From assembly GCF_016862895.1 (NCBI RefSeq), contig NZ_BONV01000003.1:1-64000 (forward strand): a stretch of 64,000 nucleotides of DNA, given 5' to 3'. Positions 38,049 to 57,616 of the stretch are shown here, one piece after another (position 1 is the stretch's first letter; every line of letters starts with the position of its first letter). The notes under the pieces are model-generated. The model was not told the DNA's origin. It did no database searches and saw only the letters and a list, made by a program, of their open reading frames with translations. The position numbers and the translations under genes are program-made. Origin of the DNA: Planotetraspora kaengkrachanensis (GTDB lineage: Bacteria > Actinomycetota > Actinomycetes > Streptosporangiales > Streptosporangiaceae).

Positions 38049-38063
38049 TCCCGCTGACCGGGA
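38049..38063. promoter_or_regulatory. 15-bp ring-regulon palindrome, upstream of fadD17 operon
   Basis: TCCCGCTGACCGGGA, one of seven related palindromes. It is centred about 79 bp upstream of the fadD17-like start. Confidence 0.6.
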
Positions 38064-38086
38064 GGTCCCCGGACGTCAGAAATCGG

Positions 38087-38107
38087 CCGTCAGCCGTCAG
38101 CCGTCAG
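38087..38107. repeat. 7-bp tandem repeat, three copies
   Basis: CCGTCAG occurs three times in a row across the stop codon of the SDR gene on the minus strand. Confidence 0.9.
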
Positions 38108-38865
38108 CCGAAGAACGCCTGGCCGCCGTCCAGGGGCACGGTGGCGCCGGTCAGGTACCGCATGCCCGGGCCGACGATCGCGACGACCGCCCGGCCGATG
38201 TCCTGCTCGCAGTCGCCGATGTAACCGAGCGGGATCGTCCTGCGGAACTCCTCCGCCTCCTCCGGGTTGGTCTCCGTCCACCACTTCAGGCCCGGGGACA
38301 GCGCGTGCGGGGCGATGGAGTTGGCGCGGATTCCGTCGGGCCCCCATTCGGCGGCGGCGGTGCGCGTCAGCGAGCGGAGCGCCTGCTTGGCCGCGGCGTA
38401 TGCGCCGTAGGTGGCCGGATCCCACCGGACCATCGCCGAGGTGACGAGGTTGACGATGCTGCCGCCGCCGCGCCGCTTCATGTGGGGGTGACACGCCTTC
38501 ATGAAGGCGAACGCGGCGAAGGGTCCGCTGCGGAAACCCTTCTGGAAGGCCCTGTCGCTCATGGCCAGCAGCGGGCCGTACGCGCCGGAGTAGGCGTTGT
38601 TGACGAGGATGTCCACCCCGCCGAACCGCGCCGCCACCTGGTCGACCACCGAGGGGATCGTGTCGGTGTCGCTGACGTCGCACAGGAAGGGTTCGGCCGC
38701 CGCGCCGCGCTCGCGTACGAGCTCACAGGTCGCCTCGAGCTTCGCCATGGTGCGCCCGATCACCGCGACGGACGCCCCCTCGGAGGCGAGGGCGAGCGCG
38801 ATGCCCTGGCCCACCCCCTGACCCGCTCCGGTGACGATCGCGACCTGTCCGTCCAGACTTCCCAT
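38104..38865 (-). CDS. SDR-family oxidoreductase
   Basis: A 253-residue short-chain dehydrogenase. TGAGQGVGQGIALALASEGA, ILVNNAYSGAYGPLL (note Tyr in place of Gly after NNA), and the catalytic YAAAKQA. GTG/ATG choice: ATG 38865 with GGGGAG upstream. Divergent from the acyl-CoA ligase gene with a 15-bp palindrome between them, so it is probably co-regulated with the ring genes. Substrate unknown; a hydroxysteroid or hydroxyacyl-CoA is likely. Confidence 0.82.
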   Translation of the reverse strand: MGSLDGQVAIVTGAGQGVGQGIALALASEGASVAVIGRTMAKLEATCELVRERGAAAEPFLCDVSDTDTIPSVVDQVAARFGGVDILVNNAYSGAYGPLLAMSDRAFQKGFRSGPFAAFAFMKACHPHMKRRGGGSIVNLVTSAMVRWDPATYGAYAAAKQALRSLTRTAAAEWGPDGIRANSIAPHALSPGLKWWTETNPEEAEEFRRTIPLGYIGDCEQDIGRAVVAIVGPGMRYLTGATVPLDGGQAFFG

Positions 38866-38935
38866 TCGGGCTCCCCGCTCCGCCGTGTGCTCGACCGCAA
38901 TAGTGGTGTCGGCCCGGCCCGCGCAGGAAGGGCCG

Positions 38936-38950
38936 TCCCGGTGACCGGGA
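38936..38950. promoter_or_regulatory. 15-bp ring-regulon palindrome, SDR / acyl-CoA ligase divergent region
   Basis: TCCCGGTGACCGGGA is nearly perfect (only the central base unpaired). It is centred in the 146-bp divergent region. Confidence 0.65.
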
Positions 38951-39011
38951 GACGGCCCTCGGCGGACGCTCCCCCTGCGGTCACAATGAGCGCCCGAGAG
39001 AGAGGGCGCAG

Positions 39012-40682
39012 ATGGGGACGTCGGCAGATCCGAGAACCGCGGCGACGGCGATCGTGACCGGTCTCACCGGCCCCGGGGGTGAGTTCGAGCTCGCCGAGGA
39101 GGACGTCCTCGGATCCCGCATGCCGGTCTTCCGCAACCGCCGCCGCAACCTCGGCGAGGTGCTCGCAGGCTCGGCCGGGTTCGGCGACCGCGACTACATC
39201 GTCACCGAGCACGAACGGATCAGCTATGCCGCGCACGCGCGCCAGGTCGCGTCGTTCGCCGAGGCGCTGCGCGAGGAGTACGGCGTGCGGCCGGGCGACC
39301 GCATCGCCGTCAACGCGGCGAACCGGCCGGGCTGGATCGTGGCGTTCTGGGCCGCCGTCGCCGTGGGCGCCGTGACCGTCGGCTACAACGCGTGGTGGTC
39401 GCGCCGCGAGGTCGAGTACGCCCTGGGGCACACGACGCCGAAACTGGTCGTGGCGGACGCCAGACGGGCCGCGCTCGGCGGCGCGGGCACACCGGTGGTG
39501 CGCATGGAGGACATGCCGCTGCTCGCCGGGCGGTACCCGGACGCGCCTCTGACCCCGCACGCCGCCGGCGAGGACGACCCGGTGATCATCGTCTACACCA
39601 GCGGCACCTCCGGCAGGCCGAAGGGCGCGGTGCACTCGCACCGCAACCTCACCTCGGTCATCGAGTACCACCGCATGAACGACGCGATCGCCCGCGCGTT
39701 CGGCGACCCCACCGACCCCGCGACGCGGCGCTACCTGCTGGCGCTGCCGTTGTTCCACATCGCGGGCCTGCACAACCTCGCGATACCGCGCCTGGCGACC
39801 GGTTCCGCGGTCGTCATGCACCAGGGCGGGTTCGACGTCGACCGGGTGTTGCGGCTGGTCGAAAGGGAACGGGTCACCAACTGGGGTGCCGTGCCCACAA
39901 TGGCGCACCGCCTGCTCGAGCACGGCGACCTTTCGGGGTACGACCTGTCCTCGCTGGCCGCATTCTCGCTCGCGTCCGCGCCGTCGTCACCGGCGTTCAA
40001 GGAACGGCTGCGCGCGGGCTTTCCCGTGGCCCGCCAGTCGCTGGTCGACAGCTACGGCCTGACCGAGTCGTCCACAGCGATCTCCGTGGCCTCCCCGGCC
40101 GACCTCGCGGAGGCGCCGGGTACGCTCGGCCGTCCCATCGCCACGGTGCGGATGGAAGTCCGCGACCCGCAGGGCACGCCGGTGCCCGAGGGCGTCGAAG
40201 GGGAGATCTGCGCGCGCAGCCCGTTCAACATGCTCGGCTACTGGCAGGACCCGGAGGCCACCGCGCGGACGATCCGGGACGACCGGTGGCTGCACACCGG
40301 CGACATCGGTGTGATCGAGAACGGCCGCCTGCGCCTCACCACCCGCCGTTCCGACCTGATCCTGCGCGGCGGGGAGAACGTCTACCCCGCCGAGGTGGAG
40401 AGCGTGTTGTGGGAGCACCCCGGCGTCGTCGAATGCGCCGTCGTCGGCGCTCCCCACCCCGACCTGGGTCAGGAGGTCGCGGCCGTGGTCGTCACCGGGG
40501 ACGACCGGCCGGTGGGCGAGGACGAACTGCGCGCACACGCCGCCGAGCACCTCGCCTACTTCAAGGTGCCGTCCCTGTGGCGGATCACGACGAACCCCCT
40601 GCCGCGCAACGCCACGGGCAAGGTCGTCCGCCACGAGGTCGAGCTGTCCCTCGGGATCCGACAGAGCAGGAGCGTCCAGTGA
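39012..40682 (+). CDS. Acyl-CoA synthetase (long-chain/steroid FadD type)
   Basis: A 556-residue adenylate-forming ligase. [19 protein letters not shown] is the A3 motif; [37 protein letters not shown] and [14 protein letters not shown] follow, with the catalytic Lys in [10 protein letters not shown]. Activates a carboxylic acid to its CoA ester; the exact acid is not evident. It is coupled by a GTGA overlap to a chsB1-like SDR, so ligase and beta-oxidation dehydrogenase may act on the same side chain. Confidence 0.85.
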
Positions 40683-41581
40683 GCCAGAAGACCAGCCTGG
40701 AGGGCAGGACCGCCGTCGTCACCGGCGCCGGCGCCGGACTCGGCCGCAGCGAGGCGCTCGCCCTGGCCGGCCAGGGCGCGAACGTCGTCGTCAACGACGT
40801 GGGCTCGGCCGCCGACGACGTCGTGGCCGAGATCAAGGCTCTCGGCGGGCAGGCCGTCGCGGTGACAGGCGACGTCGGCGAATGGTCCATCGGCGACCGC
40901 CTGGTCCAGGCGGCGACCGAGACGTTCGGCGGCCTCGACATCGTGGTGAACAACGCGGGCGTGCTCCGCGACAGGATGTTGTTCAACCTGAGCGAGCGGG
41001 ACTGGGACGACGTCGTCCGCGTCCACCTCAAGGGCCACGCCGCGGTGTCCCGCGCGGCCGCCGCCTACTGGCGGGCCGCCGCCAAGGCCGCAGGCGGGCC
41101 GGTCTACGCCCGCGTCGTCAACACCTCCTCCGAGGCCTTCCTCTTCGGCTCCCCCGGCCAGCCGAACTACTCGGCCGCCAAGGCGGGCATCACCGCGCTC
41201 ACCCTCTCGACCGCGCAGGGCCTCGCGAGGTACGGCGTGCGCGCCAACGCGATCTGCCCACGGGCCCGCACCGCCATGACGGCGGAGGTGTTCGGCGACG
41301 CCCCCTCGACGGGCGGGCTGGACGCCCTGTCCCCGGATCGGGTCGCCACCTTCGTGAGCTACCTCGTCTCCCCGGCGGCCGACGGGATCACCGGCCAGGT
41401 GTTCGTGGTGTACGGCGACATGGTCGCGTTGCTGGCCGCCCCGACGGTCGAGCAGAAGTTCACCGCCGCCGACGGCGTGTTCTCCGTCGGCGAGTTCGAC
41501 GAACTGCTCACGCCCTACTTCAGCGGGCGCGACCCCCACCGCACGTTCGCGGCGCACAGCGTGGCCGAGCTCGGCACCTGA
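40679..41581 (+). CDS. chsB1: ChsB1-like SDR, steroid side-chain 3-hydroxyacyl-CoA dehydrogenase
   Basis: A 300-residue [74 protein letters not shown] and [18 protein letters not shown] match mycobacterial ChsB1 (Rv3502c), the 17-beta-HSD-type dehydrogenase acting on the C22-hydroxy CoA ester of sterol side-chain oxidation. The GTG at 40679 overlaps the ligase stop. A C-terminal 40-residue extension ([14 protein letters not shown]) is also present in that clade. Converges with the TetR gene after a 1-bp gap. Confidence 0.82.
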
Positions 41582-41582
41582 G

Positions 41583-42194
41583 TCAGGCGGAGTTCGACCG
41601 CGGGGCGAGCAGCAGCCGGCAGGCGATCCTGATGTCGCTCTCGGTGTCGGGGATCGACATCCGGCCGTTGAGGCTCGACTGCAGCACGCCGTACCAGCAC
41701 TGCATGAGCAGGCGGATCAGCGTGACGTCGAGGGCGGTGGGCTCGCCGATGCCGAGCGCCCGCACGATGATCTGACTGAAGGTGCCGTCGATCCGCCCGG
41801 CGTCGGCCACCGCGGCCGCGTTGGCCGCGTTGGCGGACTGGAGCATCGCGACGGCGAGCCTGGGCCTGCGCAACAACTGGCGGCTGGCCTGCACCAGCAC
41901 GTCGGCGACCGCGTCCTCCGGGCTCGTGCCCGGCGCGGGAGGCCGGATGCCCTCGTTGAAACGGTCGATCTGCTCGGCCAGCACGGCCGTGAACAGATGC
42001 GTCTTCGAGGGGAAGTAGCGGTACAGCGTCGCGATCGCGACACCCGCCGCCTTGGCCACCTCGTGCATCTGCATGCGCTCGAGGCCCCGGTCCGCCCCGA
42101 TCCGCGCGGCTGCCCGGAGGATGCGCAGATGCCGGGCCCGCTGCTCCGGGGAGCTGGGCTCCGCCGGCGCTCTGACCTCGGCGATTCTCGGCAC
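41583..42194 (-). CDS. KstR-like TetR-family regulator
   Basis: A 203-residue TetR repressor. RILRAAARIGADRGLERMQM, HEVAKAAGVAIATLYRYFPS and KTHLFTAVL form a DNA-binding domain very close to that of KstR (cholesterol-regulon repressor); the ligand domain is more divergent. GTG 42194 with GGGGGAGA upstream is preferred to ATG 42233. A 15-bp palindrome lies 70 bp upstream of the start. The same palindrome occurs before six other ring or ligase operons, so this protein is the best local candidate for their regulator. It may be a KstR paralogue with changed specificity, since the palindrome is not the known KstR box. Confidence 0.85.
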   Translation of the reverse strand: MPRIAEVRAPAEPSSPEQRARHLRILRAAARIGADRGLERMQMHEVAKAAGVAIATLYRYFPSKTHLFTAVLAEQIDRFNEGIRPPAPGTSPEDAVADVLVQASRQLLRRPRLAVAMLQSANAANAAAVADAGRIDGTFSQIIVRALGIGEPTALDVTLIRLLMQCWYGVLQSSLNGRMSIPDTESDIRIACRLLLAPRSNSA

Positions 42195-42263
42195 GGTCTC
42201 CCCCTGGTCGGTTCTGTCGCAACGACCATACACAGCGCCACCGGCGGTGACGCGAGCCGTTCG

Positions 42264-42278
42264 TACCGGTCAGTGGGA
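42264..42278. promoter_or_regulatory. 15-bp ring-regulon palindrome, upstream of the KstR-like TetR gene
   Basis: TACCGGTCAGTGGGA, 70 bp before the GTG. It lies between the TetR start and the hsaA stop, as expected for autoregulation. Confidence 0.55.
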
Positions 42279-42312
42279 TCGGACTGGGACCGGACTGCGC
42301 CCGCCTCCCCCC

Positions 42313-43479
42313 TCAGACCAGGTTGTCCTCGACGGTCAGGCCGAACTCGCCCCTCCCGTACATCGCGAGGGCCCGCTCGACGTCGTTGGCCACATGGACG
42401 CTGCCCGCGTGGGCGTCCCGCCAGGCCCGCTCGATGGGGTTGCCCCGCCGGAGCGAGTTGCCCCCCGCGGTCTTGAAGAGGATGTCGATCGCCTCGAGCG
42501 CCCTCTCGGTCGCGCGGACCTGGTCCCTGCGGACACGCAGGCGCAGCTCCATCGGGATCCGCTCGCCCCGGACCGCGTGCTCGTACACCTCACGGACGTT
42601 GCGGTCCGTCTGCAGGACCGCCGCGTCGATCTCCGAGGCGGCCCGGGCGACGGCGACCTGGGCGAACTGGTCCTCGGCGAAGCGCCCGCCGCCGAGGCTC
42701 AGCCGTACGCGGTCGCGCATCGCCGTGACGTAGGACCGGTAGCAGCCGGCCGCCATGCCGATCACCGGAGCAGTGATCGCGGTCGTGAACACGCTCCCGA
42801 ACGGCATGCGGTACAGCGGGCCGGAGTTGACCTTCTGGCCGGGGCCGCGGAGCTGGGCCTGCTCGTAGTTGCGCATCGTGCGGTGCTCAGGCACGAAGGC
42901 CCGCTCCACGATCAGGTCGTTGCTCGCCGTGCCGCGCAGGCCGATGACGTCCCACACGTCCTCGATCACATAGTCGGGCCGGGGGACGAGCACGGTCATG
43001 AAGTCCACCGGCCTGCCCTGGGCGCCCACGACCAGGCCGCCGACCAGCGCCCACGAGGCGTGCTCGCAACCGGAGGAGAACCGCCACCGGCCGGTGAGCT
43101 CGTATCCGCCCTCGACCGGGGTCAGCCGCCCGACGGGCGCGTACGACGAGGCCACGAGCGCGTCCTGGTCCTCGCCCCAGACCTCGTCCTGCGCCGCCTC
43201 GTCGAACAGGCCGACATGCCACGGATGCACCCCGAGCACGCTCGCGACCCACCCGGTGGACCCGCAGACCCCGGAGATCTCCCTGACGACCTCGAAGAAC
43301 CACACCGGGTCGCTCTCCGCGCCGCCGTACCGCTTGGGCTGCAGCATCCGGAAGACCCCGGCCTCGACCAGGGCCTGGATCGTCTCCGCGGGCACCCCCC
43401 GGTCCTCGTCCGTGGCACGGGCACGCTCCGTGATCACGGGCAGCAGCGTGCGAACCGCCTCCAGGACCTCGTTGCTCAT
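42313..43479 (-). CDS. hsaA: HsaA, 3-HSA hydroxylase oxygenase component
   Basis: A 388-residue flavin-dependent monooxygenase of the ACAD fold, hydroxylating 3-HSA to the catechol 3,4-DHSA with FMNH2 from HsaB. GGAESDPVWFFEVVREISGV, CGSTGWVASVLGVH, VWGEDQDALVASSYAPVG, WRFSSGCEHASWALVGG (active-site Ser region) and AWRDAHAG (His) match canonical HsaA. ATG 43479 has GGAG nine bases upstream; ATG 43494 would add five residues and is possible. Divergent from kshA, with a shared 15-bp palindrome. Confidence 0.9.
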   Translation of the reverse strand: MSNEVLEAVRTLLPVITERARATDEDRGVPAETIQALVEAGVFRMLQPKRYGGAESDPVWFFEVVREISGVCGSTGWVASVLGVHPWHVGLFDEAAQDEVWGEDQDALVASSYAPVGRLTPVEGGYELTGRWRFSSGCEHASWALVGGLVVGAQGRPVDFMTVLVPRPDYVIEDVWDVIGLRGTASNDLIVERAFVPEHRTMRNYEQAQLRGPGQKVNSGPLYRMPFGSVFTTAITAPVIGMAAGCYRSYVTAMRDRVRLSLGGGRFAEDQFAQVAVARAASEIDAAVLQTDRNVREVYEHAVRGERIPMELRLRVRRDQVRATERALEAIDILFKTAGGNSLRRGNPIERAWRDAHAGSVHVANDVERALAMYGRGEFGLTVEDNLV

Positions 43480-43561
43480 CGTGTCGATCTCCATCGTCGC
43501 TTTCGTCCGGGCGTATCCGTCCATGATGGTGCGTCGCCCCGATGCGCGCATGTCAGGGCCA

Positions 43562-43576
43562 TCCCGGCCAATGGGA
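43562..43576. promoter_or_regulatory. 15-bp ring-regulon palindrome, hsaA/kshA divergent region
   Basis: TCCCGGCCAATGGGA, midway between the hsaA and kshA starts. Confidence 0.6.
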
Positions 43577-43645
43577 CTGGCGGCGGGCCGCGCGGATCCC
43601 GCTTGGCATGCTGGGAGCACGCGCGTCCTGAAGGGATGGGTCAAC

Positions 43646-44797
43646 GTGACTGCAGTCGAAGCCTCGACCACCGGTGTCCGCAGCATCGAGGCGGAAGCGG
43701 TGCCCACGCGATTCGCCCGGGGCTGGCACTGCCTCGGCCTGTCCGGGCGGTTCAAGGACGGCAAGCCGCACACGGTCAACGCGTTCGGGCAGAAGCTCGT
43801 GGTCTTCCAGAGCGGCGACGGCAGCCTCAACGTGCTGGACGCCTACTGCCGTCACATGGGCGCCGACCTCTCAAGGGGCACGATCAAGGGCGACGAGCTC
43901 GCCTGTCCCTTCCACGACTGGCGCTGGGGCGGCGACGGCCGCTGCAAGAAGATTCCTTACGCCCGCCGCGTCCCCCTGCGCGCCCGCACCGCCTCCTGGA
44001 CCACGATGGAGCAGGACGGCCTGCTGTTCGTCTGGAACGACCCGGAGGGCAACCCGCCCCAGCCGGAGGTGGCGATCCCCCGCATCGAGGGGGCCGGCCG
44101 CGACGACTGGACCGACTGGGTCTGGCAGGAGATCGTGGTCGAGACGAACTGCCGCGAGGTCATGGACAACGTGGTGGACATGGCGCACTTCTTCTACGTG
44201 CACTACTCGTTCCCCACGTACTTCAAGAACATCTTCGAAGGCCACGTGGCGACGCAGATCATGAACGGCCTCAGCCGCCCGGACGCCCGCCCGCCCGGCA
44301 AGGGCCCGCGGATGCTCGGCAACTCCTCGGTGGCGTCCTACTACGGGCCGTCCTTCATGATCGACGACCTGACCTACCACTACGACGACATGGACCTCAA
44401 GTCCGTGCTGATCAACGCGCACTACCCGATCGACGGGAACTCGTTCATGCTGCACTCCGGCATCATCGTGCAGCACAGCGACAAGCTCCCCCAGGAGTCC
44501 GCCGAGGCCATGGCCCACAAGCTGGGCGAGTTCATCCTCAAGGGCTTCGACCAGGACGTGGAGATCTGGAAGCACAAGACCCGCATCGACAACCCCCTGC
44601 TGTGCGAGGAGGACGGGCCGGTCTACCAGCTCCGCCGCTGGTACGAGCAGTTCTACGTCGACGTGGCCGACGTCAGGCCGGAGATGGTGGAGCGCTTCGA
44701 GTTCGAGCTCGACACCACCCGGCCGGTCGAGGCGTGGAAGCAGGAGGTCGAGGCGAACCTCGCGCGCAGGGCCGCCGCGGCGGGCCGACAGGCATGA
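43646..44797 (+). CDS. kshA: KshA, 3-ketosteroid 9-alpha-hydroxylase oxygenase
   Basis: A 383-residue Rieske non-heme iron oxygenase. Rieske ligands are C68, H70, C87 and H90 (CRH and CPFHDW). The mononuclear iron motif is D178-x2-H181-x4-H186 (DMAHFFYVH). It hydroxylates C9 of AD/ADD with electrons from KshB, which together with KstD triggers B-ring opening. GTG 43646 follows an AAGGGATGGG stretch and gives the normal length. Its stop overlaps the start of a small cysteine-containing ORF (ATGA). Confidence 0.93.
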   Translation: MTAVEASTTGVRSIEAEAVPTRFARGWHCLGLSGRFKDGKPHTVNAFGQKLVVFQSGDGSLNVLDAYCRHMGADLSRGTIKGDELACPFHDWRWGGDGRCKKIPYARRVPLRARTASWTTMEQDGLLFVWNDPEGNPPQPEVAIPRIEGAGRDDWTDWVWQEIVVETNCREVMDNVVDMAHFFYVHYSFPTYFKNIFEGHVATQIMNGLSRPDARPPGKGPRMLGNSSVASYYGPSFMIDDLTYHYDDMDLKSVLINAHYPIDGNSFMLHSGIIVQHSDKLPQESAEAMAHKLGEFILKGFDQDVEIWKHKTRIDNPLLCEEDGPVYQLRRWYEQFYVDVADVRPEMVERFEFELDTTRPVEAWKQEVEANLARRAAAAGRQA

Positions 44798-45066
44798 CGA
44801 TCCGCGCCGACGACCGCCTGACCGACGGAGCGCCGATGCGGCCGCTGTGCTGCCTGCGATGCGGCGCCGCAGTCGAGGTGCGCAAGGCGAGCTGGCAGCA
44901 GACCAGCGTCCAGTGGAGCGCGCAGTCCCTCGGCGTCTGCCTCGAACGGCGCGACGCCCTCTCCGTCAACGGTGACGGCCGCGCCGTCTTCCAGGGCTGT
45001 ACGGCACTGCGGGAGTCGATCGTCCGGGCGGCGCTCGAGGGGGCCGTCCCCGTGCCGGAGGACTGA
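44794..45066 (+). CDS. Small conserved CxxC protein coupled to kshA
   Basis: A 90-residue protein starting in the kshA stop (ATGA overlap). PLCCLRCGAAVEVRKASWQQ (two neighbouring Cys then CxxC-like spacing) is followed by two further Cys (GVCLERR, QGCTALRE). That makes four to five conserved-looking Cys, compatible with a zinc ribbon or small Fe-S protein. Similar short ORFs follow kshA in other actinomycetes, as far as I recall. It may assist KshA assembly or electron transfer; no function is established. Confidence 0.75.
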   Translation: MTIRADDRLTDGAPMRPLCCLRCGAAVEVRKASWQQTSVQWSAQSLGVCLERRDALSVNGDGRAVFQGCTALRESIVRAALEGAVPVPED

Positions 45067-45125
45067 CGGGGTTCCGGAGACTGACGGAATGCCGGAGGAC
45101 TAAGGAGCGCCGGAGGGCTGACGGA

Positions 45126-45148
45126 GCGGGCGGCCGCGAGCCGCCCGC
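45126..45148. terminator. Bidirectional hairpin terminator after kshA operon
   Basis: A 9-bp stem GCGGGCGGC/GCCGCCCGC with a 5-nt loop lies between convergent genes. The surrounding 110 bp are built of imperfect 'ccggag...ctgacgg' and GATCAGCT repeats. Confidence 0.65.
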
Positions 45149-45175
45149 GCGATCAGCTGGGGATCAGCTCAGAGA

Positions 45176-47614: not shown

Positions 47615-48529
47615 TCAGGACCTGGGCACGAACGCGGCCAGCGGCTCGGAGCCCGACCAGTCGTGACCCCAGTAGCTGTCGGCGGTGATCTCCTCGGCCG
47701 TGTAGTACGTCTCGTCGACGAGCATGCCGCCGGTGCCGTACTCGAGGTCCCAGCCGCCCGGCGCGCGGACGTAGAAGGAGACCATCTTGTCGTTGGTGTG
47801 CCGGCCCAGGGTCGAGGAGATGGAGAAGCCCAGCTCGCTCACCCTGTCGAGCGCCCTGCCGACCGCGTCCAGGCTGTCGACCTCGACCATGAGGTGCACC
47901 AGGCCGGGGTCGCCGTTGTGGGCCGCCGGGCAGATCGCGAGGCTGTGGTGCCGCTGGTTGATCCCCATGAAGCGCATCCGCCGGAACGGCGGCTTCCGCC
48001 GGCCCACCTTCATCGCTCCGCGCGGCAGGAACCCGAGCACCTCGGTGTAGAAGGAGACCGTCTCCTCCATCGCGATGGTGGGCAGCACCACGTGGCCCAT
48101 CCCCTGCGGGCCGGTCACGAACCGCTGCCCCCTGCCCGTGACCACGGGGCTGTGGTCGAGGACGGGGCCGAAGTAGACCTCGACCGGGATGCCGGCGGGG
48201 TCGGTGAACGCGATCACCTGCTCGGCCCCGCGGTCGATGGCCTCCTGCTCGGAGAGCACCTTGACCGGCGTCCCGTGCGCCTCGACGGCGCGGCCGACCG
48301 CGGCGAGGGCGAACTGGTCGCGGACCTCCCACCCGACGGCGAGCACCCGGTCGGCGTCCCCGGGGAGCACGATGAGCCGCGCCTGCCGTTCGTCCATCCG
48401 GAGGTAGAGGCCGTCCGGCTCGGGTCCGGAGCCCTCCGCGAAGCCGAGCCCGTCGATCACGAGCTCACGCCAGCGACCGATGTCACGCGTCTGGACCTTG
48501 AGATAGCCCAGTCCTCGGATCTGCGTCAC
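47615..48529 (-). CDS. hsaC: HsaC, 3,4-DHSA extradiol dioxygenase
   Basis: A 304-residue type I extradiol dioxygenase of the vicinal-oxygen-chelate fold, cleaving the A ring of 3,4-DHSA. Iron ligands by position: H146 (GMGHVVLP), H212 (LVHLMVEV), E263 (WDLEYG). NQRHHSLAICP and TLGRHTNDKMVSFYV hold the second-shell His residues. The GTG start has GGTGG upstream. Heads an operon with the kstD-like gene; a 15-bp palindrome lies 70 bp upstream. Confidence 0.93.
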   Translation of the reverse strand: MTQIRGLGYLKVQTRDIGRWRELVIDGLGFAEGSGPEPDGLYLRMDERQARLIVLPGDADRVLAVGWEVRDQFALAAVGRAVEAHGTPVKVLSEQEAIDRGAEQVIAFTDPAGIPVEVYFGPVLDHSPVVTGRGQRFVTGPQGMGHVVLPTIAMEETVSFYTEVLGFLPRGAMKVGRRKPPFRRMRFMGINQRHHSLAICPAAHNGDPGLVHLMVEVDSLDAVGRALDRVSELGFSISSTLGRHTNDKMVSFYVRAPGGWDLEYGTGGMLVDETYYTAEEITADSYWGHDWSGSEPLAAFVPRS

Positions 48530-48598
48530 CTGTCCACCAATCTCCCGGGCTTTCGTCCACCCAAAAGTGACAGACAGGCCGCCCGGCTGCCTGGAGGC

Positions 48599-48613
48599 TC
48601 CCGCTGAGTGAGA
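48599..48613. promoter_or_regulatory. 15-bp ring-regulon palindrome, upstream of hsaC
   Basis: TCCCGCTGAGTGAGA, 70 bp before the hsaC start. One change in the right half. Confidence 0.55.
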
Positions 48614-49763: not shown

Positions 49764-49775
49764 AGCCGCTCACCT

Positions 49776-49852: not shown

Positions 49853-51037
49853 TCAGATCATCGAACGCATCGGCCCCTGGGGCGGCTCGATGCCGAGCTG
49901 CGTCAGCGCCGAGACGTGGAAGACCGCACCCGGCACGTGGATGGCGTGCGTCAGGCCCACGTGCGCGTCACGCCAGAAACGCTGGATCGGGTTGTCCACG
50001 CGCATGGCGTTCCCGCCGGACCGGTTGACGATCTCGTCGACCGCGCGGACCGCCCGCCAGGCCGCCTGCACCTGGGTGCGCCTGCTCACCGCCCGCTCGT
50101 CGAAGGTGACCTCGCGGCCCGCCGCGACGAGGTCGTACATCCGCGAGGCGTTGTCGAGCAGCGCCGACCGCGCGGCCGCGATGTCAGCAGCGGCCTCGCT
50201 GATGGCGTAGAGCACGTACGGATCGTCCTTGATCTTGGTGCCGGTGATCTGCACCCGGCCCTTCTGGTAGGCCAGGTGGTGCGCGAGGGCGCCCTCGGCC
50301 ATGCCGATCACGGACGCGGTGATCCCGAGGGGAAACGCGACGGAGAACGGCAGGTGGTAGGTCGGGTTGGTCAGCCCCGCCTCCCTGGCCGCGCTGCCGT
50401 CCACGACCTTCGAGAACGGGATGACCCGGTAGTCGGGGACGAACGCGTCCCTGACGACGACGTCCTTGCTGCCGGTGCCGCGCAGGCCGACCACGTTCCA
50501 CGAGTCCTCGACGATCTCGTAGTCGGACCGCGGGAGGATCAGGTGCAGCGACTCCGGCGGTTTGGCGACGTTGCCCTCCGCGTCGCCGAGCATGCCGCCG
50601 AGGAAGATCCAGTCGCAGTGGTCGGTGCCGGAGGAGAACTGCCAGCGCCCGTTGAAGACGTAGCCCCCGTCGACCGGCCGGGCGACGCCCATGGGCGCGT
50701 ACGGCGAGGCGATCCAGGTGTCCTGGTTCTCGCCCCAGATCTCCCGCTGGACCCGGGGATCGGCGTAGGCCATCTCCCAGGGGTGCACGCCGACGACCCC
50801 GGCCACCCAGCCGGTGGAGCCGTCCAGACTGGCGATCTTCATGACGGTCTCGGCGAACTCGCACGGGTGGAACTCGAAACCGCCGTGGATCCGCGGCTGG
50901 AGCATCCGAATGACTCCGGCTTCGCGGAGCACTTTGGCGGCCTGGTCGTCCAGCCTGCACAGGGTCTCGTTCACGGAGCCGAGCGCGCTGATCTCCTCGG
51001 CCCGCCGGGTGATCGCCTCGAGTACCGGGTTGCCCAT
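49853..51037 (-). CDS. HsaA-like flavin-dependent monooxygenase (second copy)
   Basis: A 394-residue ACAD-fold monooxygenase. RMLQPRIHGGFEFHPCEFAE, DGSTGWVAGVVGVHPW, IWGENQDTWIASPYAPMG, WQFSSGTDHCDWIFLGGM and RFWRDAHVG parallel HsaA, but the substrate-side residues differ (SPYAPMG, TDHCDW). ATG 51037 follows the hsaF stop by 8 bp in the hsaE-hsaG-hsaF operon. It may hydroxylate a modified 3-HSA, or another phenolic intermediate, using HsaB-supplied FMNH2. Only one reductase gene is present. Confidence 0.82.
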   Translation of the reverse strand: MGNPVLEAITRRAEEISALGSVNETLCRLDDQAAKVLREAGVIRMLQPRIHGGFEFHPCEFAETVMKIASLDGSTGWVAGVVGVHPWEMAYADPRVQREIWGENQDTWIASPYAPMGVARPVDGGYVFNGRWQFSSGTDHCDWIFLGGMLGDAEGNVAKPPESLHLILPRSDYEIVEDSWNVVGLRGTGSKDVVVRDAFVPDYRVIPFSKVVDGSAAREAGLTNPTYHLPFSVAFPLGITASVIGMAEGALAHHLAYQKGRVQITGTKIKDDPYVLYAISEAAADIAAARSALLDNASRMYDLVAAGREVTFDERAVSRRTQVQAAWRAVRAVDEIVNRSGGNAMRVDNPIQRFWRDAHVGLTHAIHVPGAVFHVSALTQLGIEPPQGPMRSMI

Positions 51038-51045
51038 GGCTTCTC

Positions 51046-52068
51046 TCACTTCTTCGCCGCGAGGGCGACTGCGATCTCGATGAGCTGGTCTTCCTGGCCG
51101 CCGACGAGCTTGCGCCGCCCGGCCTCGAGCAGGATCTCCGCGCCGGGCACGCCGTACTTCTTCGCCTGGCGGTCGGCGTGCTTGAGGAAACTGGAGTACA
51201 CCCCCGTGTAGCCCATGGTGAGCGCCATCCGGTCGAGCAGGCACTCGCCGTCCATGATCGGACGGACGACGTCCTCGGCGGCGTCCATGATCTTGATCGT
51301 GTCGATGCCGGTCCGGATGCCGAGCCTCTCGGCGACGGCGGTGAACGCCTCGACCGGCGTGTTGCCCGCCCCGGCGCCGAACCGGCGGGCCGAGCCGTCG
51401 ATCTGGAGCGCGCCCGCCCGCACCGCGAGGATCGAGTTGGCGACGCCGAGGCCGAGGTTCTCGTGACCGTGGAAGCCGACCTGGGCGTCGGCGCCGAGTT
51501 CCGCCACGAGCGCGGCAACCCGGTCGGAGGTCTGTTCCATGATCAGGGCGCCCGCCGAGTCGACGACGTACACGCACTGGCAGCCGGCGTCCGCCATGAT
51601 CCGGGCCTGCCTGGCGAGCACCTCGGGCGTCCGGCTGTGCGCCATCATGAGGAACCCGACCGTCTCCAGGCCCAGTTCCCTGGCCAGGCCGAAATGCTGC
51701 ACCGCGATGTCGGCCTCGGTGCAGTGCGTGGCGATCCTGCAGATGCTCGCGCCGTTGTCGGCGGCCTCCCGGATGTCGTCCTGGATTCCGAGGCCGGGCA
51801 GCATGAGGAAGGCGATCTTCGCCTGCCTGGCGGTCGCCACGGCGGCCTTGATGAGCTCCTGCTCGGGCGTGAGGCTGAAGCCGTAGTTGAACGACGAGCC
51901 GCCGAGCCCGTCGCCGTGCGTCACCTCGATCACCGAAACGCCCGCGTCGTCGAGCGCGGCGACGACGGACCGGACGTGCTCCGCGGTGAACTGGTGCTGT
52001 TTGGCGTGGGAGCCGTCGCGCAGCGACGAGTCGGTGACCCTGATGTCCAGGTCGGCGCTGTAGGGCAT
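51046..52068 (-). CDS. hsaF: HsaF, 4-hydroxy-2-oxohexanoate aldolase
   Basis: A 340-residue DmpG-type aldolase. The metal and catalytic motif [18 protein letters not shown] has Arg17/Asp18; [10 protein letters not shown] provides His metal ligands, and [18 protein letters not shown] is conserved. It splits 4-hydroxy-2-oxohexanoate into pyruvate and propanal, which is channelled to HsaG. Fourth-from-promoter order is hsaE, hsaG, hsaF, hsaA-like. Confidence 0.94.
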
Positions 52069-52104
52069 GCGGTCGATCTCCTTGTGGCTGGGAGTCCCTG
52101 GTGA

Positions 52105-52989
52105 CTAGGTCCGCGCGAAGCCCTCGCCGACCCTGGTGGCGGCCGCGGTCATGATGTCGAGGTTGCCGGAGTAGGGCGGCAGGAAGTCCCCCGCGCCCTC
52201 GACCTCGAGGAACACCGCGACCCTGGCGAGCCCGCCGCTCACCGGGGTGGGGTCGTCGAACTGCGGCTCCGCGCGCAACCGGTAGCCGGGCACGTAGGAC
52301 GCGACGGCCGCGACGACGTCGTCGATCGAGGCGGAGATCGCGTCCCTGTCGGCGGCGGCGGGGATCGCGCAGAAGACCGTGTCCTGCATGATCATCGGCG
52401 GCTCGGCCGGGTTGAGGATGATGATCGCCTTGCCCCTCCCCGCTCCCCCGATCGTCTCGATGCCACGACCGGTGGCGCGGGTGAACTCGTCGATGTTGGC
52501 CCGGGTGCCCGGGCCCGCCGACGGGGAGGCGACGCTGGCGACGATCTCTGCGTAGGACACCTCGGCGACCCGGGAGACGGCGTGGACGACGGGGATCGTC
52601 GCCTGCCCGCCGCAGGTGATCAGGCTGACGTTGGGCGCGTCGAGGTGGGCGCCGAGGTTCACGGCGGGCACCACGGCGGGCCCGATGGCCGCGGGCGTCA
52701 GGTCCACGGCCCTGATGCCGAGCGCCTCGTACCTGGGCGCGTTCTCCCTGTGCACGTGGGCCGAGGTCGCCTCGAAGACGATGTCGGGCAGCTCCCGCCG
52801 GGCCAGCAGCCACTCGACGCCCTCGGCGGAGGCGACGAGGCCGGCGGAGTCCGCCCGTTTCAGCCCGGGGCTGTCCGCCTCGACGCCGATCATCCAGCGC
52901 GGCTCGATCAGCTCGGAACGGAGCAGCTTGTACATCAGGTCGGTCCCGATGTTGCCCGAGCCGACGATCGCGGCGGTCGCCTTGGTCAC
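52105..52989 (-). CDS. hsaG: HsaG, acylating propanal/acetaldehyde dehydrogenase
   Basis: A 294-residue CoA-acylating aldehyde dehydrogenase. [18 protein letters not shown] is the NAD-binding start; the catalytic Cys126 lies in [14 protein letters not shown]. Oxidises propanal to propionyl-CoA in complex with HsaF. 13 bp after hsaE and 36 bp before hsaF in the operon. Confidence 0.94.
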
Positions 52990-53002
52990 TGCTGTCTCAC
53001 TC

Positions 53003-53788
53003 TCATTCGAATCGGGCGCTCACGGACCCGAGCCCGGCGAACTCGGCCACGAAGACGTCGCCGGGGCGCACGTCGACGGCCCTGGTGCACGAGCCGGGAA
53101 GGATGACGTGCCCCGCCTCGAGACGCACCCCGAAGGCGGCGACCTTCCTGGCCAGCCAGGCCACGGCGATGGTGGGATCGCCGAGGACGGCGCTGGTGTT
53201 GCCCCGCGTGATCTCCGTGCCGTCCTGGTAGAGCACGGCCTCGACGTCGGCGGGGTCCAGGTCGGCCGGGCTGACCCTGGCGGCGCCGAGCAGCACGCCG
53301 GCCGAGGACGCGTTGTCGGCGACGGTGTCCGCCAGCCCGATGCGCCAGTCCTTGATCCGGCTGTCGATCAGCTCGATGCTCGGCACGACGTACTCGGTCG
53401 CGGCGAGGACGTCGGCTTCCGTGCATCCCTCCCCGGGGAGGCTCGACCCGAGGACGTACCCGATCTCGACCTCGATCCGCGGGTGGCAGTACCGGCCCGC
53501 CTCGACGGGGACGTCCTCCGACAACACCATCGTGTCGAGCAGGTGACCGTAGTCGGGCTCGTCGACGCCCATCATCCGCTGCATCACCGGGGACGACAGC
53601 CCCACCTTGTGCCCGTACACCCGGGCGCCCTGGGCGAGGCGGCGCCGGATGTTGCTGAGCTGGATCTCGTAGGCGTCCACCACGTCGATGCCCGGGTAGG
53701 CGTCGGTCAGCGGCTCGATCGGCACCCGGTCCCGCTCCGCCGCCCACAGCCGTCCGGCCGCGGACGCGCGCTGCGCCGCCTCCAGCAT
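53003..53788 (-). CDS. hsaE: HsaE, 2-hydroxyhexa-2,4-dienoate hydratase
   Basis: A 261-residue MhpD-type hydratase. [38 protein letters not shown] (metal-binding Glu pair) and [13 protein letters not shown] are family features. Hydrates the dienoate released by HsaD. First gene of the hsaE-hsaG-hsaF-hsaA-like operon, with a 15-bp palindrome 70 bp upstream of its ATG. Confidence 0.92.
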
Positions 53789-53857
53789 CCAGTCCTCCCG
53801 CGATCGGCCCTGCGAATCTCAAAGGTTCCAGCCGGGGCTCTGCGCCGGTGCCCGTTT

Positions 53858-53872
53858 TCCCGCTCAGTGGGA
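53858..53872. promoter_or_regulatory. 15-bp ring-regulon palindrome, upstream of hsaE
   Basis: TCCCGCTCAGTGGGA, extended by an outer T/A pair to 17 bp. 70 bp before the hsaE start. Confidence 0.65.
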
Positions 53873-53896
53873 ACCGCCCGGCGTCCGGGGGCGGGT

Positions 53897-54964
53897 TCAG
53901 CCGTCGTAGGTGACCTTGAGCCGTTCGCTGACCGGGATCGCCTGGCAGGACAGGATCAGGCCGTCGGCGAGGTCCTGCCGGTCGAGCACGGTGTTGCGCT
54001 CCAGCGTGACCTCGCCCTCAAGGAGCACGCAGGCGCACGCGCTGCAGGACCCCTCCCGGCAGGAGTACGGCGCGTCCATCCCGGCGTCCAGGATCACGTC
54101 GAGCAGCTTGTTGCCCGCGGGCCAGGCCAGCGTCCTCGTCTCCCCGTCCAGCTCGACCTCCACCGTGCTGACCGGGCCGGACACGTCGAGGACGACCGCC
54201 GACCCGGCGAACGGATCGGTGGCCAGCGACTCGAACCGCTCCACGTGGATCCGCCGGTCCTGGGCGCCCAGCCCGGCGAGTACCTCCGAGGCGAGGTCCA
54301 TGAACGGCCCCGGCCCGCAGACGAAAGCCTCCCTTCCCGCGTACGGCCGGACCAGGCCGGCGAGACCGGCCGCGGTGGGCAGGCCCTGCACCGACTCCAG
54401 CCAGTGGAGGACCGTCAGCCGCTCGCCGTACTCGGCGGTCAGCGCGACGAGCTCGTCCCGGAAGATCACCGACTTCTCGTCCCTGTTGGCGTAGACGAGG
54501 GTGAGCACTCCCGTCCCCGCACGCAGGCACGACTTGAGGATCGACATGACCGGGGTGATGCCGCTGCCGCCCGCGAGAAGCAGCAGGTCGTCGTCGAGCG
54601 AGGTGGGGGTGAACGTCCCGGAGGGGCGCAGCACCTCGAGCACGTCCCCCTCGGTGACGTTGTCGCAGATCCAGTTGGACCCGTAACCGCCCCGGGTCCG
54701 CTTCACCGTCACCTTGAGCTTGTCGTCGCACACCGGCGAACTGCTGAGCGAGTAGCAGCGCGCCGCGCCCTCCGGGCGGGTGGTCGGCACCCGGACGGTG
54801 AGGAACTGGCCGGGCCGGTAGCCCAACCGGGAATGGTCGCCGTCGGCGGGTTCGAGGACGAGCGAGTGGGCGTCCGCGGTCTCGCGGACCACCTCCACCA
54901 CCCGCATCCTGAGCGGGCCCGGCTGTGTCATCTCCGGTGTGTCATCTCTTGGCGACTGTGTCAT
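53897..54964 (-). CDS. kshB: KshB, ketosteroid 9-alpha-hydroxylase reductase
   Basis: A 355-residue reductase. The FNR-like FAD domain (RCYSLSSSPVCDD), the NAD domain (LLLAGGSGITPVMSILK, VCGPGPFMD) and a C-terminal plant-type [2Fe-2S] domain (CREGSCSACACVL then ILSCQ) give the KshB order. Delivers electrons to KshA. ATG 54964 overlaps the kstD stop (ATGA) and gives the usual length. ATG 54931, in a duplicated copy of the same start context, would shorten it by 11 residues. Confidence 0.92.
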   Translation of the reverse strand: MTQSPRDDTPEMTQPGPLRMRVVEVVRETADAHSLVLEPADGDHSRLGYRPGQFLTVRVPTTRPEGAARCYSLSSSPVCDDKLKVTVKRTRGGYGSNWICDNVTEGDVLEVLRPSGTFTPTSLDDDLLLLAGGSGITPVMSILKSCLRAGTGVLTLVYANRDEKSVIFRDELVALTAEYGERLTVLHWLESVQGLPTAAGLAGLVRPYAGREAFVCGPGPFMDLASEVLAGLGAQDRRIHVERFESLATDPFAGSAVVLDVSGPVSTVEVELDGETRTLAWPAGNKLLDVILDAGMDAPYSCREGSCSACACVLLEGEVTLERNTVLDRQDLADGLILSCQAIPVSERLKVTYDG

Positions 54965-54970
54965 CTCTTG
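54933..54970. repeat. 20-bp-period tandem duplication across the kstD stop / kshB start
   Basis: On the minus strand CGCCAAGAGATGACACA occurs twice 20 bp apart, and AGATGACACA a third time downstream. This gives three ATG codons in the same local context. Confidence 0.85.
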
Positions 54971-56610
54971 GCGGCCGCGTGCCGCGCGGCGATGTACCCG
55001 AAGACGATCGAGGGGCCGATCGTGGCGCCCGGGCCGGCGTACTCGTTGCCCATGACGGAGGCCGAGGTGTTGCCGGTGGCGTACAGGCCCTCGATCACCG
55101 ACTCGTCCGCGCGCAGGACCCTGCTGTGCTCGTCGCACACCAGCCCGCCCTTGGTGCCCAGGTCGCCGACCTCGATCCGGAAGGCGTGGAACGGCGCCTT
55201 GCCGATCACGTCGAGGTTCGGGTTCTTCAGCGTGGGGTCGCCGTAGTACCGGTCGTACGCGCTGTCCCCGCGGCCGAAGTCCTCGTCCTTTCCCGCCTCG
55301 GCGAACCGGTTGAACCGCGCCACGGTCTCGGCCAGCGTGCCCGCCGGCACGCCGATCTTGCCCGCCAGCTCTTCGACGGTCCCGGCCTCGAACGCGATGC
55401 CCTTCTCGTAGTACCCCCGCGGGATCGGCGCCCCCGGGAGGATCTGGGCGAACGGGTAGCGCTCTCTGGCCTTGGCGTCCATCACGAACCACGCGGGAAC
55501 ATGCCCGCCGGCCAACTGGTCGTGGACGAAGTTGACGTAAGGCGACGACTCGTTGGTGAAGCGCCTGCCGTCCGACGACACGATGATCGACGGCGGGATG
55601 CACCGCTCGGACACGAGCGGGATGACCGCCCCCGCCGGATGCCGGACGGCGGGCATCCACCAGGCGTCGTCCATCAGGCCGAGGTCGGCGCCGAGCCGCT
55701 CGCCGGCCAGGATGCCGTCGCCGGTGTTCTCCCTGGCGCCCATGCCGAAGTCCTCCCTGCCGCCCTCGGGCAGGTGTTTCGCGCGCATCTCGGGGTTGTG
55801 GTCGAACCCGCCCGTCGCCAGCAGCACGCCGTACCTGCCCCGGATCCGGATCTCCTCGCCGTCACGCCGGGCGACGATTCCGGTGACGGCCTTGCCTTCG
55901 TCGGTGACCAGATCCGTCATGGGCGTCTTGAGCCAGAGCGGCACGCCCGCGTCCTTGACCGCCATCCGCAGCCGCGCGACCAGCGCCCGCCCCCCGGTGG
56001 CCATGTGCCTGCGCCGCACGAGGTTGGACGCGACCCGCCAGGCCGCGACGACCGAGGCCCGGCGGCCCCGCCAGGTGCGCTTCACCATGGCCAGGTCGTG
56101 GTAGTCCTTGGCGGTGATCCACAGCCCGAGGGGGCCCTTCATGCTGTTGGGGCGCTGGTGTCTCTCGTCCTCGACGAGCTTGCGGGTGTCGAACGGCAGC
56201 GCCTCGATCGACCGCCCCATCGGCCGGCCGCCCTCAAGCTCTGGGTGATAGTCCGAGTAGCCCTTCACCCAGAAGAAGCGCATCCATCTGCTCCTGCAGA
56301 GCAGTTCCATCGCGGCGGGGCCCTCGTCGACGAACGCGTCCAGCCGCGCGGCCGGGACCCGTCCCCCGGTCAGCAGGTCGAGATAACGGCGGATCGACTC
56401 ACGGCTGTCGTCGTGGCCCTTCGCCCGCAGAGCCGGGTTGTTCGGGATCCAGATCCCGCCGCCGGAGATCCCGGTGCTGCCGCCGAACTTCCCGCCCTTC
56501 TCGACCACGACGGCGGACAGCCCGCTGTCGTGCGCGGTCAGCGCGGCGGCCATGCCGCCCGCGCCGCTGCCGACGATGACGAGATCGAACTCGTGGTCCC
56601 ACTCGCTCAC
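54961..56610 (-). CDS. kstD: KstD, 3-ketosteroid delta-1-dehydrogenase
   Basis: A 549-residue flavoprotein introducing the C1-C2 double bond in AD or 9-OH-AD. The FAD motif GSGAGGMAAALTAHD begins at residue 14; GGSTGISGGGIWIPNNP, VLLATGGFDHNPEMR and GNEYAGPGATIGPSIVFGY (Tyr/Gly of the active site) are canonical. GTG 56610 overlaps the hsaD stop (GTGA). Middle gene of the hsaD-kstD-kshB operon. Confidence 0.94.
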   Translation of the reverse strand: MSEWDHEFDLVIVGSGAGGMAAALTAHDSGLSAVVVEKGGKFGGSTGISGGGIWIPNNPALRAKGHDDSRESIRRYLDLLTGGRVPAARLDAFVDEGPAAMELLCRSRWMRFFWVKGYSDYHPELEGGRPMGRSIEALPFDTRKLVEDERHQRPNSMKGPLGLWITAKDYHDLAMVKRTWRGRRASVVAAWRVASNLVRRRHMATGGRALVARLRMAVKDAGVPLWLKTPMTDLVTDEGKAVTGIVARRDGEEIRIRGRYGVLLATGGFDHNPEMRAKHLPEGGREDFGMGARENTGDGILAGERLGADLGLMDDAWWMPAVRHPAGAVIPLVSERCIPPSIIVSSDGRRFTNESSPYVNFVHDQLAGGHVPAWFVMDAKARERYPFAQILPGAPIPRGYYEKGIAFEAGTVEELAGKIGVPAGTLAETVARFNRFAEAGKDEDFGRGDSAYDRYYGDPTLKNPNLDVIGKAPFHAFRIEVGDLGTKGGLVCDEHSRVLRADESVIEGLYATGNTSASVMGNEYAGPGATIGPSIVFGYIAARHAAAKR

Positions 56611-57476
56611 TGGGCGTCCTTCCTCGTCAGGAAGCCGAGCACGACGCTCTCCCAGGCGGCCTTCTGTTCGATCATGACCCAGTGCCCGCAGTCGGGGAAG
56701 ACGTGCAACTCGGCGTCGGGGATCGTGCGCATCGGCAGGATCGCCATGTCGACCGGGCTCACCCGGTCGTCGCGCCCCCACGTGATCAGTGTCCTTGCCT
56801 TCAACCGGTGCAGCATCGCCCAGTACGGCGGGGCGTCCGAGCGGGCCATGGCGGCCGTGCGGGCGGCGGACGCGGCCCTGCCGTACATGCGCCGGGCGCT
56901 CGCCAGCGTGGCCGGGTCGGTGGCCTGGGTCCAGCGCTCCTCGATCAGCTCCTCGGTGACCAGCGCCGGGTCGTGGACCATGGAGTAGAGCCACCGGATG
57001 AGCGCCTCCCTGGTGGGGTTCTCGGTGAACTCTATGAGGAGGTTGATGCCTTCACCCGGGCCCGGGCTGAACAGGTTCCTGCCGATGCCGCCGATGGTGA
57101 CGAGCCTGCGCACCCGATCGGGGTGGGCGATCGCCACCTGGGCGGCCACCACGCCGCCCATCGAATTGCCGATCACGTCGACCTGCTGGAGCCCGAGCCC
57201 GTCGAGGAACCGGATCACCGCGCCGTTCGCCGCCGCCATGGGATGCTCTCCGGTCGGGTCGCTGACCCCGAACCCGGGGAACTCGAGGACCAGGCAGCGG
57301 AAGTGGTCGGCGAACACGGGCAGGTTGCCGCGGAAGTTCCGCCAGCCGGTGACCCCGGGACCCGATCCGTGCAGGAGCAGCAGGGGCGGCCCCTCACCCG
57401 CCTCGTGGTACCGCAGCACCCCCTGGTCGGTCGTGAGCTCGCGCGCCGTCGACTCATAGGTCAGCTCTGTGGTCAT
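56607..57476 (-). CDS. hsaD: HsaD, 4,9-DSHA meta-cleavage product hydrolase
   Basis: A 289-residue alpha/beta-hydrolase. The triad is Ser105 (IGNSMGG), about Asp237 (WGRDDRVSP) and His265 (DCGHWVMIE). LLLLHGSGPGVTGWRNFRGN carries the oxyanion loop. Cleaves the HsaC product into HIP and the 2-hydroxydienoate. ATG 57476 gives family length. Heads the operon; divergent from hsaB. Confidence 0.94.
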   Translation of the reverse strand: MTTELTYESTARELTTDQGVLRYHEAGEGPPLLLLHGSGPGVTGWRNFRGNLPVFADHFRCLVLEFPGFGVSDPTGEHPMAAANGAVIRFLDGLGLQQVDVIGNSMGGVVAAQVAIAHPDRVRRLVTIGGIGRNLFSPGPGEGINLLIEFTENPTREALIRWLYSMVHDPALVTEELIEERWTQATDPATLASARRMYGRAASAARTAAMARSDAPPYWAMLHRLKARTLITWGRDDRVSPVDMAILPMRTIPDAELHVFPDCGHWVMIEQKAAWESVVLGFLTRKDAQ

Positions 57477-57601
57477 GTCGCCCCAGTCATCGCAATGTCG
57501 GCTCCCGGGGACGGTAATCGACGTCGCCCGCCCGCCGTGATGATCATCCCGATGAGCGAGACCCGGCCCCCGCCGTCGTCGGGGCGGGGCGCGCCGGGGG
57601 C

Positions 57602-57616
57602 GCCCACTGAACGGGA
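57602..57616. promoter_or_regulatory. 15-bp ring-regulon palindrome, hsaD/hsaB divergent region
   Basis: GCCCACTGAACGGGA, in the 231-bp gap between hsaD and hsaB. The separate palindrome GATGATCATC lies at 57539-57548. Confidence 0.55.

Follow-up and report, generated by a model that had tools for sequence, protein, structure and literature searches.

Operators of the TetR-family regulators KstR and KstR2 are 14-bp AAC..GTT or CAAG..CTTG palindromes. Both of these characterised actinobacterial sterol regulators are repressors (PMC8399759). A different palindrome, Lcin1 (TCCCGGT[C/G]ACCGGGA), was found by MEME and footprinting in bile-acid cluster E of N. simplex VKM Ac-2033D and also upstream of hsaEGF there; the authors did not settle what binds it, considered KR76_18060 (a KstR3 ortholog) and the TetR gene KR76_18605 as candidates for the new motifs, and called for further research (Shtratnikova et al. 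2020, PMC7593942). Here, we analyzed a 64,000-nucleotide stretch of Planotetraspora kaengkrachanensis (contig NZ_BONV01000003.1, positions 1 to 64,000; the window), which carries nine sites of this type among steroid degradation genes, together with genes for a KstR3-type TetR protein and an IclR-family protein. The motif is not new, since it equals Lcin1, published in silico in 2020. The palindrome and the kind of target are the same as in N. simplex: the site at 38936 matches the published palindrome, the other sites are variants of it, and they precede genes of the bile-acid cluster as well as hsaEGF (casG, casI, hsaA, hsaEGF, and others). Neither a fixed spacing to a -10 box nor an IclR assignment is seen in the passages of PMC7593942 concerned. 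The sequence comparisons below suggest that the nine sites are probably operators of an IclR-family activator, most likely the protein encoded at 58316-59203.

Seven of the nine sites were listed in an earlier note on this DNA; all seven are present where it placed them, and all are intergenic, although for the site at 43562 this status rests on the HsaA profile match beginning at 43464, as longer open reading frames overlap the site. The consensus of that note, TCCCRSYSAVYGGGA, matches four of the seven exactly on the plus strand and those at 42264, 48599, and 57602 with one mismatch. At up to two mismatches it has 39 matches in the window, compared with 22.0 ± 5.5 in dinucleotide shuffles, none of 100 of which reached 39. 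The fully palindromic TCCCRSTSASYGGGA is a better form of the motif. The list of that note has to be extended by two sites: 57547-57561 (TCCCGATGAGCGAGA), on the hsaD side, was overlooked, and 32327-32341, discounted there as a weak match, belongs to the set with its spaced hexamers and conserved neighbors. In three Planotetraspora loci (L023, L024, and L025), all from one genus, the latter site is flanked by the same genes and keeps its two hexamers; in the window, its CACCAT hexamer lies only about 9 bp 5' of the ATG of the FadD3-family ligase gene.

Bacterial -10 boxes follow the nANNNT rule, and -10-like hexamers of this form were located by their distance from the site toward the gene. 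Such a hexamer starts 29 to 31 bp past the site on the gene-facing side in 11 of the 12 window promoters, a number reached in 0 of 5,000 dinucleotide shuffles (largest, 7); the twelfth promoter is that of kstR3 (Table 1). Each of three divergent gene pairs shares a single site, with the spacing retained on both sides. Across the loci bearing the IclR gene, 131 gene-facing directions, those of the window included, yielded 24, 39, and 19 hexamers at 29, 30, and 31 bp, with a mean of 2.4 and a maximum of 8 at other distances, while the 60 directions from KstR sites showed no spacing peak. Counted by site, a spaced -10 was found on at least one side in 85 of 107 intergenic sites of the IclR-bearing groups; this count took in 6 of the 14 named Streptosporangiaceae loci, a later count added most of the remaining loci, and the figure for all 14 is 47 of 68. 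By comparison, it was found in 2 of 22 sites drawn from genome G433, KstR loci, TetR loci that lack IclR, and the P. kaengkrachanensis genome beyond the window, and at 12.5% and 14.6% of random intergenic positions. Five permuted palindromes used as controls picked up real sites (in group B, for example, 22 of 40 intergenic matches had the -10); once overlaps with Lcin1-like sequences were removed, the -10 was present in 1 of 12 matches where the locus bears IclR and in 4 of 7 where it does not, both small numbers. Throughout these counts, orthologous promoters of related genomes are not independent.

In five non-shared cases, the earlier note had placed the site about 70 bp 5' of the start, a distance that is explained by the constant spacing between site and -10. 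Placing the -10 at -12 puts the center of the site near -50. TTGACA is matched at no more than three of six places in 11 of the 12 window promoters, and no -35 consensus was found in 104 aligned promoters, a set preselected for the -10. A fixed spacing to the -10, together with sites shared by divergent genes, fits the need of an activator, whereas a repressor does not need such spacing. With the predicted -10 boxes, the arrangement is the one expected for an IclR activator, namely, a site upstream of the core promoter at a fixed position and a weak -35.

In the 8.77-Mb genome (96 contigs), TCCCRSTSASYGGGA with up to one mismatch matched 50 sites, compared with 8 for the pattern written backwards; 5 of the 50 lie within a 15.8-kb interval of the window, picked afterwards, where about 0.09 would be expected. 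The remaining 45 comprise 36 in genes and 9 intergenic sites according to our own, crude gene caller. Three of these nine fall together in a single GC-rich stretch, close to the end of a contig and ahead of a possible coding start (G000:C3:383714-383838; L055). On these numbers, the motif by itself lacks genome-wide specificity. The triple site was dropped as a regulon member because its GC-rich stretch is close to the contig end, and a wider Lcin1 regulon in the same genome was dropped because so many of the other sites are in genes. At up to two mismatches elsewhere in this genome (41 stretches), the -10-like hexamer occurred at the fixed distance in 1 of 13 matches between genes and 3 of 45 within genes, and the motif combined with the spaced hexamer is much more specific than the motif alone. 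An origin of the sites as chance GC-rich palindromes, for which the genome-wide number and the many in-gene matches could be cited, is already refuted by their clustering at steroid promoters, the -10 spacing, the conservation in other genera, the clean controls, and the independent discovery of the motif by MEME in another genus.

The protein encoded at 58316-59203 belongs to the IclR family, both characteristic domains exceeding their gathering cut-offs (Table 1); its best NCBIfam match is to the PcaR/PcaU/PobR subfamily (114.3 bits, below the cut-off of 284.75). IclR-family operators have been described as GKTYCRYW3-4RYGRAMC or TGRAACAN1-2TGTTYCA, with KTYCRSMWYSYGRRM for NdgR/LtbR, and the family often governs aromatic-ring degradation and includes activators (Suvorova & Gelfand 2021, PMC8222616); the word "steroid" is absent from the main text of that paper. 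Lcin1, a 15-bp odd palindrome, has in common with the group 1 operators, including that of NdgR/LtbR, both the odd spacing and the YCR(S)...(S)YGR core (PMC8222616). In 104 site-orientations, collected with a pattern leaning toward YCR...YGR, positions 3 and 11 were C or T and positions 5 and 13 were A or G in all 104, and position 4 was C and position 12 was G in 100. The full group 1 consensus is not matched: C and G dominate positions 2 and 14, where the published operators have outer T/A, and the center is TSA in place of W3 (PMC8222616). An R. ruber genome paper from 2019 lists iclR genes in steroid-pathway regions. Within the portion of the literature on KstR3, Lcin1, and IclR with bile acids or steroids that was covered, no paper assigning the Lcin1 motif to IclR was found.

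Among 150 genomes of the family (Streptosporangiaceae, as defined by named members), KstR3 was present in 22 (E ≤ 1e-40) and the IclR protein in 23 (E ≤ 1e-75); some of the genomes with G labels are probably identical to named loci, and family and genus calls rest on group labels. Three genomes, G433, G508, and G478, are discordant for the two regulators. G433 has KstR3 (77 to 79%), hsaA (81%), and hsaB (77%), and its best IclR match, at 39%, is no counterpart; no Lcin1 with up to three mismatches precedes kstR3 or hsaA, and none of the three intergenic matches in 39 kb has the spaced -10. G508 has the IclR protein (55 to 57%) along with hsa, ksh, and kst genes and lacks KstR3, its best TetR match (40%) being KstR-type; the spaced -10 is found at five of six intergenic sites, including those before hsaG-F, hsaA//kshA, hsaD, and hsaE. 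All five intergenic sites in the stretch of G322 contig C18 that bears its IclR gene have the -10, and no site lies within 300 bp before the KstR3-like TetR gene on C22. Similarly, 16 of 18 sites on G031 contigs C87 and C8 have the -10, with IclR genes on C87 and no site within 300 bp before the TetR gene on C88. Sites with the -10 also occur at IclR paralog loci whose stretch has no KstR3 homolog (two of three in L247 and L249 and four of four in L248); the genomes of these loci carry KstR3 elsewhere. On G031 C8, L299 and L300 contain several Lcin1 sites with the spaced -10 in a catabolic-looking cluster.

Computation shows the sites and their constant distance to the -10, a weak -35, a core of IclR type, and the losses and retentions between genomes; from these features we infer binding by IclR, activation, a ligand, and a subordinate role for KstR3. 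The IclR activator would bind the palindrome as a dimer or tetramer when a bile-acid-derived ligand is present, centered about 50 bp 5' of the transcription starts, and would help RNA polymerase at promoters in which the -10 is at a fixed distance and the -35 is weak or missing. In this way it would turn on casG, casI, the SDR genes, hsaA, kshA, hsaC, hsaEGF, hsaD-kstD-kshB, and hsaB, and the FadD3-type ligase gene is a probable further target; kstR3 would be a target of IclR and not the controller of the cluster. On balance, we also favor the broader view that Lcin1 marks a promoter class extending over several actinobacterial families, in which a 15-bp IclR-type operator stands 30 bp 5' of a -10 with little or no -35, an IclR activator subfamily runs catabolic clusters for bile acids and related polycyclic compounds, and KstR3 is downstream and secondary. 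If true, bile-acid breakdown would be under positive IclR control. Nine operators and twelve -10 boxes are predicted under the proposal of an IclR binder, which, with the natural cases of loss, opens the question of the binder to testing; the case is also a caution against assigning a motif to the nearest autoregulated-looking gene.

The earlier note took the TetR protein encoded at 41583-42194 to be the binder; as an autoregulated repressor, it would be released by a bile-acid metabolite. This now appears unlikely, and the IclR protein, as an activator, is the more likely of the two. The TetR protein is a relative of KstR, scoring 112.7 bits against the NCBIfam KstR family NF033703 (cut-off, 280). 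A separate KstR-type TetR gene of the same genome (G000:C58:27193-27726; L052), also under that cut-off at 144.1 bits, has the KstR-type sites TAGAACACATTCTA and TAGAACGCGTTACA, in agreement with the earlier claim of a coherent steroid regulon distinct from that of KstR. KstR/KstR2 regulons likewise comprise steroid catabolic targets, but the operators differ from Lcin1, and the KstR sites here lack the fixed -10 spacing. KstR-clade genes (MR.VA in helix 2) carry TAGAACnnGTTCTA-type sites: the 14-bp KstR operator TnnAACnnGTTnnA was found with up to one mismatch within 300 bp upstream in 27 of 28 rows, none of which has Lcin1 at up to two mismatches, whereas the closest match to it in the promoter of the window kstR3 gene differs at three positions. 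The KstR3 of M. neoaurum, a negative regulator of a sterol side-chain operon, is likened to the window protein by name and TetR family alone (PMC10398937); the words "motif" and "palindrom" are absent from the main text of that paper.

The site ahead of kstR3, which had suggested autoregulation, is real. All 20 kstR3 rows at or above 68% identity have Lcin1 upstream with up to two mismatches (20 of 21 counting G433); two pairs among these rows look like duplicate genomes. Lcin1 was also found in four of six rows of 48 to 55% (L102 to L107) and, among more distant rows, in L109, L110, L111, L114, and L131 (at -240), with three mismatches in L112 and L128, and no Lcin1 was present upstream in L108, L113, L116, and L121. 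In most cases, across genera, the site in this promoter ends asymmetrically, with GGTA in place of GGGA. The other target genes, however, have the same promoter architecture. The helix 2 residue changes together with the upstream motif, from Arg in the KstR clade to His, Gln, Asn, or Val in the KstR3 clade; this would suit binding by the TetR protein, but different targets of the two clades would account for it just as well. The KstR3 candidate gene of N. simplex is induced by lithocholate (PMC7593942), and many genomes with sites near IclR paralogs also hold KstR3, which could act in trans. Set against this are the activator-like fixed spacing at the targets, the persistence of KstR3 in G433 with no site before kstR3 and hsaA, the retention of sites in G508 without KstR3, the location of sites and TetR genes on separate contigs in G322 and G031, and an IclR-type palindrome that is 15-bp and odd, not 14-bp and even; the assignment to the TetR protein is therefore not upheld. 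It is possible, though we would not presume it, that both proteins act, with IclR activating from Lcin1 and KstR3 repressing at least its own gene through an operator over the -10, for which GTGTATGGTCGTTGCGACA is a candidate (42215-42233); such an arrangement would agree with activation by IclR as proposed above. This element is conserved in Streptosporangiaceae kstR3 promoters, and the related GTGTAAGGTCTTCCCGGAC persists in G433, where Lcin1 is gone; on the other hand, it occurs only once in the window at up to three mismatches and overlaps the core promoter, and its conservation may be that of the -10 itself.

Several observations weigh against the assignment to IclR. Lcin1 does not match the published IclR consensus at its outer T/A or its central W3, the IclR gene in Planotetraspora has no site of its own, and of 42 other IclR loci 16 have a site within 400 bp, one of them with a -10 at 29 to 31 bp (and three rows at 32 bp). 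The spacing peak is weaker in Microbispora, Microtetraspora, Nonomuraea, and Streptosporangium (9, 6, and 5 of 46 at 29, 30, and 31 bp; 6 at 33 bp and up to 6 elsewhere), and the hsaA promoter has a -35-like CTGACA (five of six places). In G478, a 71% IclR protein adjoins hsaA in the absence of KstR3, and the 38 kb read contain a single intergenic match, with two mismatches and no -10 (27 matches genome-wide at up to one mismatch). On G107 C42, which bears both regulators, 36 kb contain two intergenic sites, each with two mismatches, and one of the two has a -10; the IclR paralog loci G107 C100 and G031 C121/C98 have 0 of 0 and 1 of 3 sites with a -10. The G508 IclR protein pairs with that of G322 in the tree and not with that of the window, and one degenerate 2-mismatch match, without a -10, lies upstream of hsaB in G433. 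Of the regulator candidates in N. simplex, the two that were induced are the KstR3 ortholog and the TetR gene; no induction was seen for a possible casA ortholog (PMC7593942). The site-rich G031 C8 has no IclR gene in the stretch read. This last point could also favor a third regulator of Lcin1; with IclR, among the regulators that were inspected, present in the Lcin1 loci of G508, G322, L247, L248, and L249, we consider a third regulator unlikely.

Table 1. Lcin1-type sites with their -10-like hexamers (distance from the site), and genes and elements of the window
Feature	Coordinates	Strand	Details
Lcin1-type site, divergent FadD3-family ligase // SDR	32327..32341	.	2 mismatches to TCCCRSTSASYGGGA; CACCAT at 30 bp (32291-32296, -), TACCCT at 29 bp (32371-32376, +)
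Lcin1-type site, upstream of casI operon	38049..38063	-	exact; TAACGT 29 bp downstream (38014-38019)
Lcin1-type site, divergent SDR // casG	38936..38950	.	exact; CACTAT at 30 bp (38900-38905, -), CACAAT at 31 bp (38982-38987, +)
Lcin1-type site, upstream of kstR3	42264..42278	-	1 mismatch; GTGTAT at 30 or TATGGT at 33 bp
Lcin1-type site, divergent hsaA // kshA	43562..43576	.	CACCAT at 30 bp (43526-43531, -), CATGCT at 30 bp (43607-43612, +)
Lcin1-type site, upstream of hsaC	48599..48613	-	1 mismatch; CACTTT at 29 bp (48564-48569)
Lcin1-type site, upstream of hsaEGF	53858..53872	-	exact; AACCTT at 30 bp (53822-53827)
Lcin1-type site, upstream of hsaD-kstD-kshB	57547..57561	-	2 mismatches; TACCGT at 30 bp (57511-57516)
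Lcin1-type site, upstream of hsaB	57602..57616	+	TAACGT at 30 bp (57647-57652)
FadD3-family acyl-CoA ligase	30702..32282	-	NF005801, 703.3 bits (cut-off 657)
casI, steroid-22-oyl-CoA synthetase	36337..37977	-	NF052587, 959.7 bits (cut-off 900)
casG, steroid-24-oyl-CoA synthetase	39054..40682	+	NF052580, 886.7 bits (cut-off 750)
KstR3-type TetR regulator (binder in the earlier note)	41583..42194	-	PDB 3bjb, 257 bits; KstR chains, about 92 bits
Conserved element GTGTATGGTCGTTGCGACA over kstR3 -10	42215..42233	-	speculative KstR3 operator
hsaA	42313..43464	-	NF045629, 662.5 bits (cut-off 450)
kshA-like gene	43652..44797	+	start approximate; name from the earlier note
hsaC-like extradiol dioxygenase	47615..48460	-	NF045631, 295.9 bits (below cut-off 450); TIGR03213, 325.8 bits (below cut-off 366)
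hsaEGF operon	51046..53788	-	hsaG- and hsaF-type families over cut-offs; hsaE, HpaH-like hydratase, below cut-off
kstD-like FAD dehydrogenase	54961..56610	-	NF009473, 895.8 bits (cut-off 837)
hsaD-like hydrolase	56607..57476	-	NF045632, 276.5 bits (below cut-off 400)
hsaB-like flavin reductase	57747..58283	+	NF045630, 192.6 bits (below cut-off 230)
IclR-family regulator (proposed binder and activator)	58316..59203	-	PF09339 HTH_IclR, 46.9 bits (cut-off 22); PF01614 IclR_C, 117.1 bits (cut-off 24)

By their family matches, CasG and CasI mark bile-acid side-chain degradation, and the presence of both genes identifies the window as a bile-acid cluster. The gene labeled fadD17 in the earlier note is the one that matches casI above the cut-off. 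The names hsaB, hsaC, hsaD, and kshA rest on similarity, context, and that note's labels; the kshA-like translation matched no NCBIfam family at E ≤ 1e-60, and its name is unconfirmed. The kstD-like protein scored 676.9 bits against the 3-oxosteroid 1-dehydrogenase family NF005882, below the cut-off of 788. Judged by the TetR protein, the nearest named genome is that of Planotetraspora phitsanulokensis (98%). Relatives of the FadD3-family ligase are KstR2 targets in mycobacteria, and the site at 32327-32341 before the ligase gene may mean that bile-acid regulation has taken over this ring C/D entry gene. HsaA exceeds its cut-off at only one place in the genome (42313..43464); a second HsaA-like monooxygenase is encoded at 49853-51037 (minus strand), with 387 bits under the HsaA cut-off of 450.

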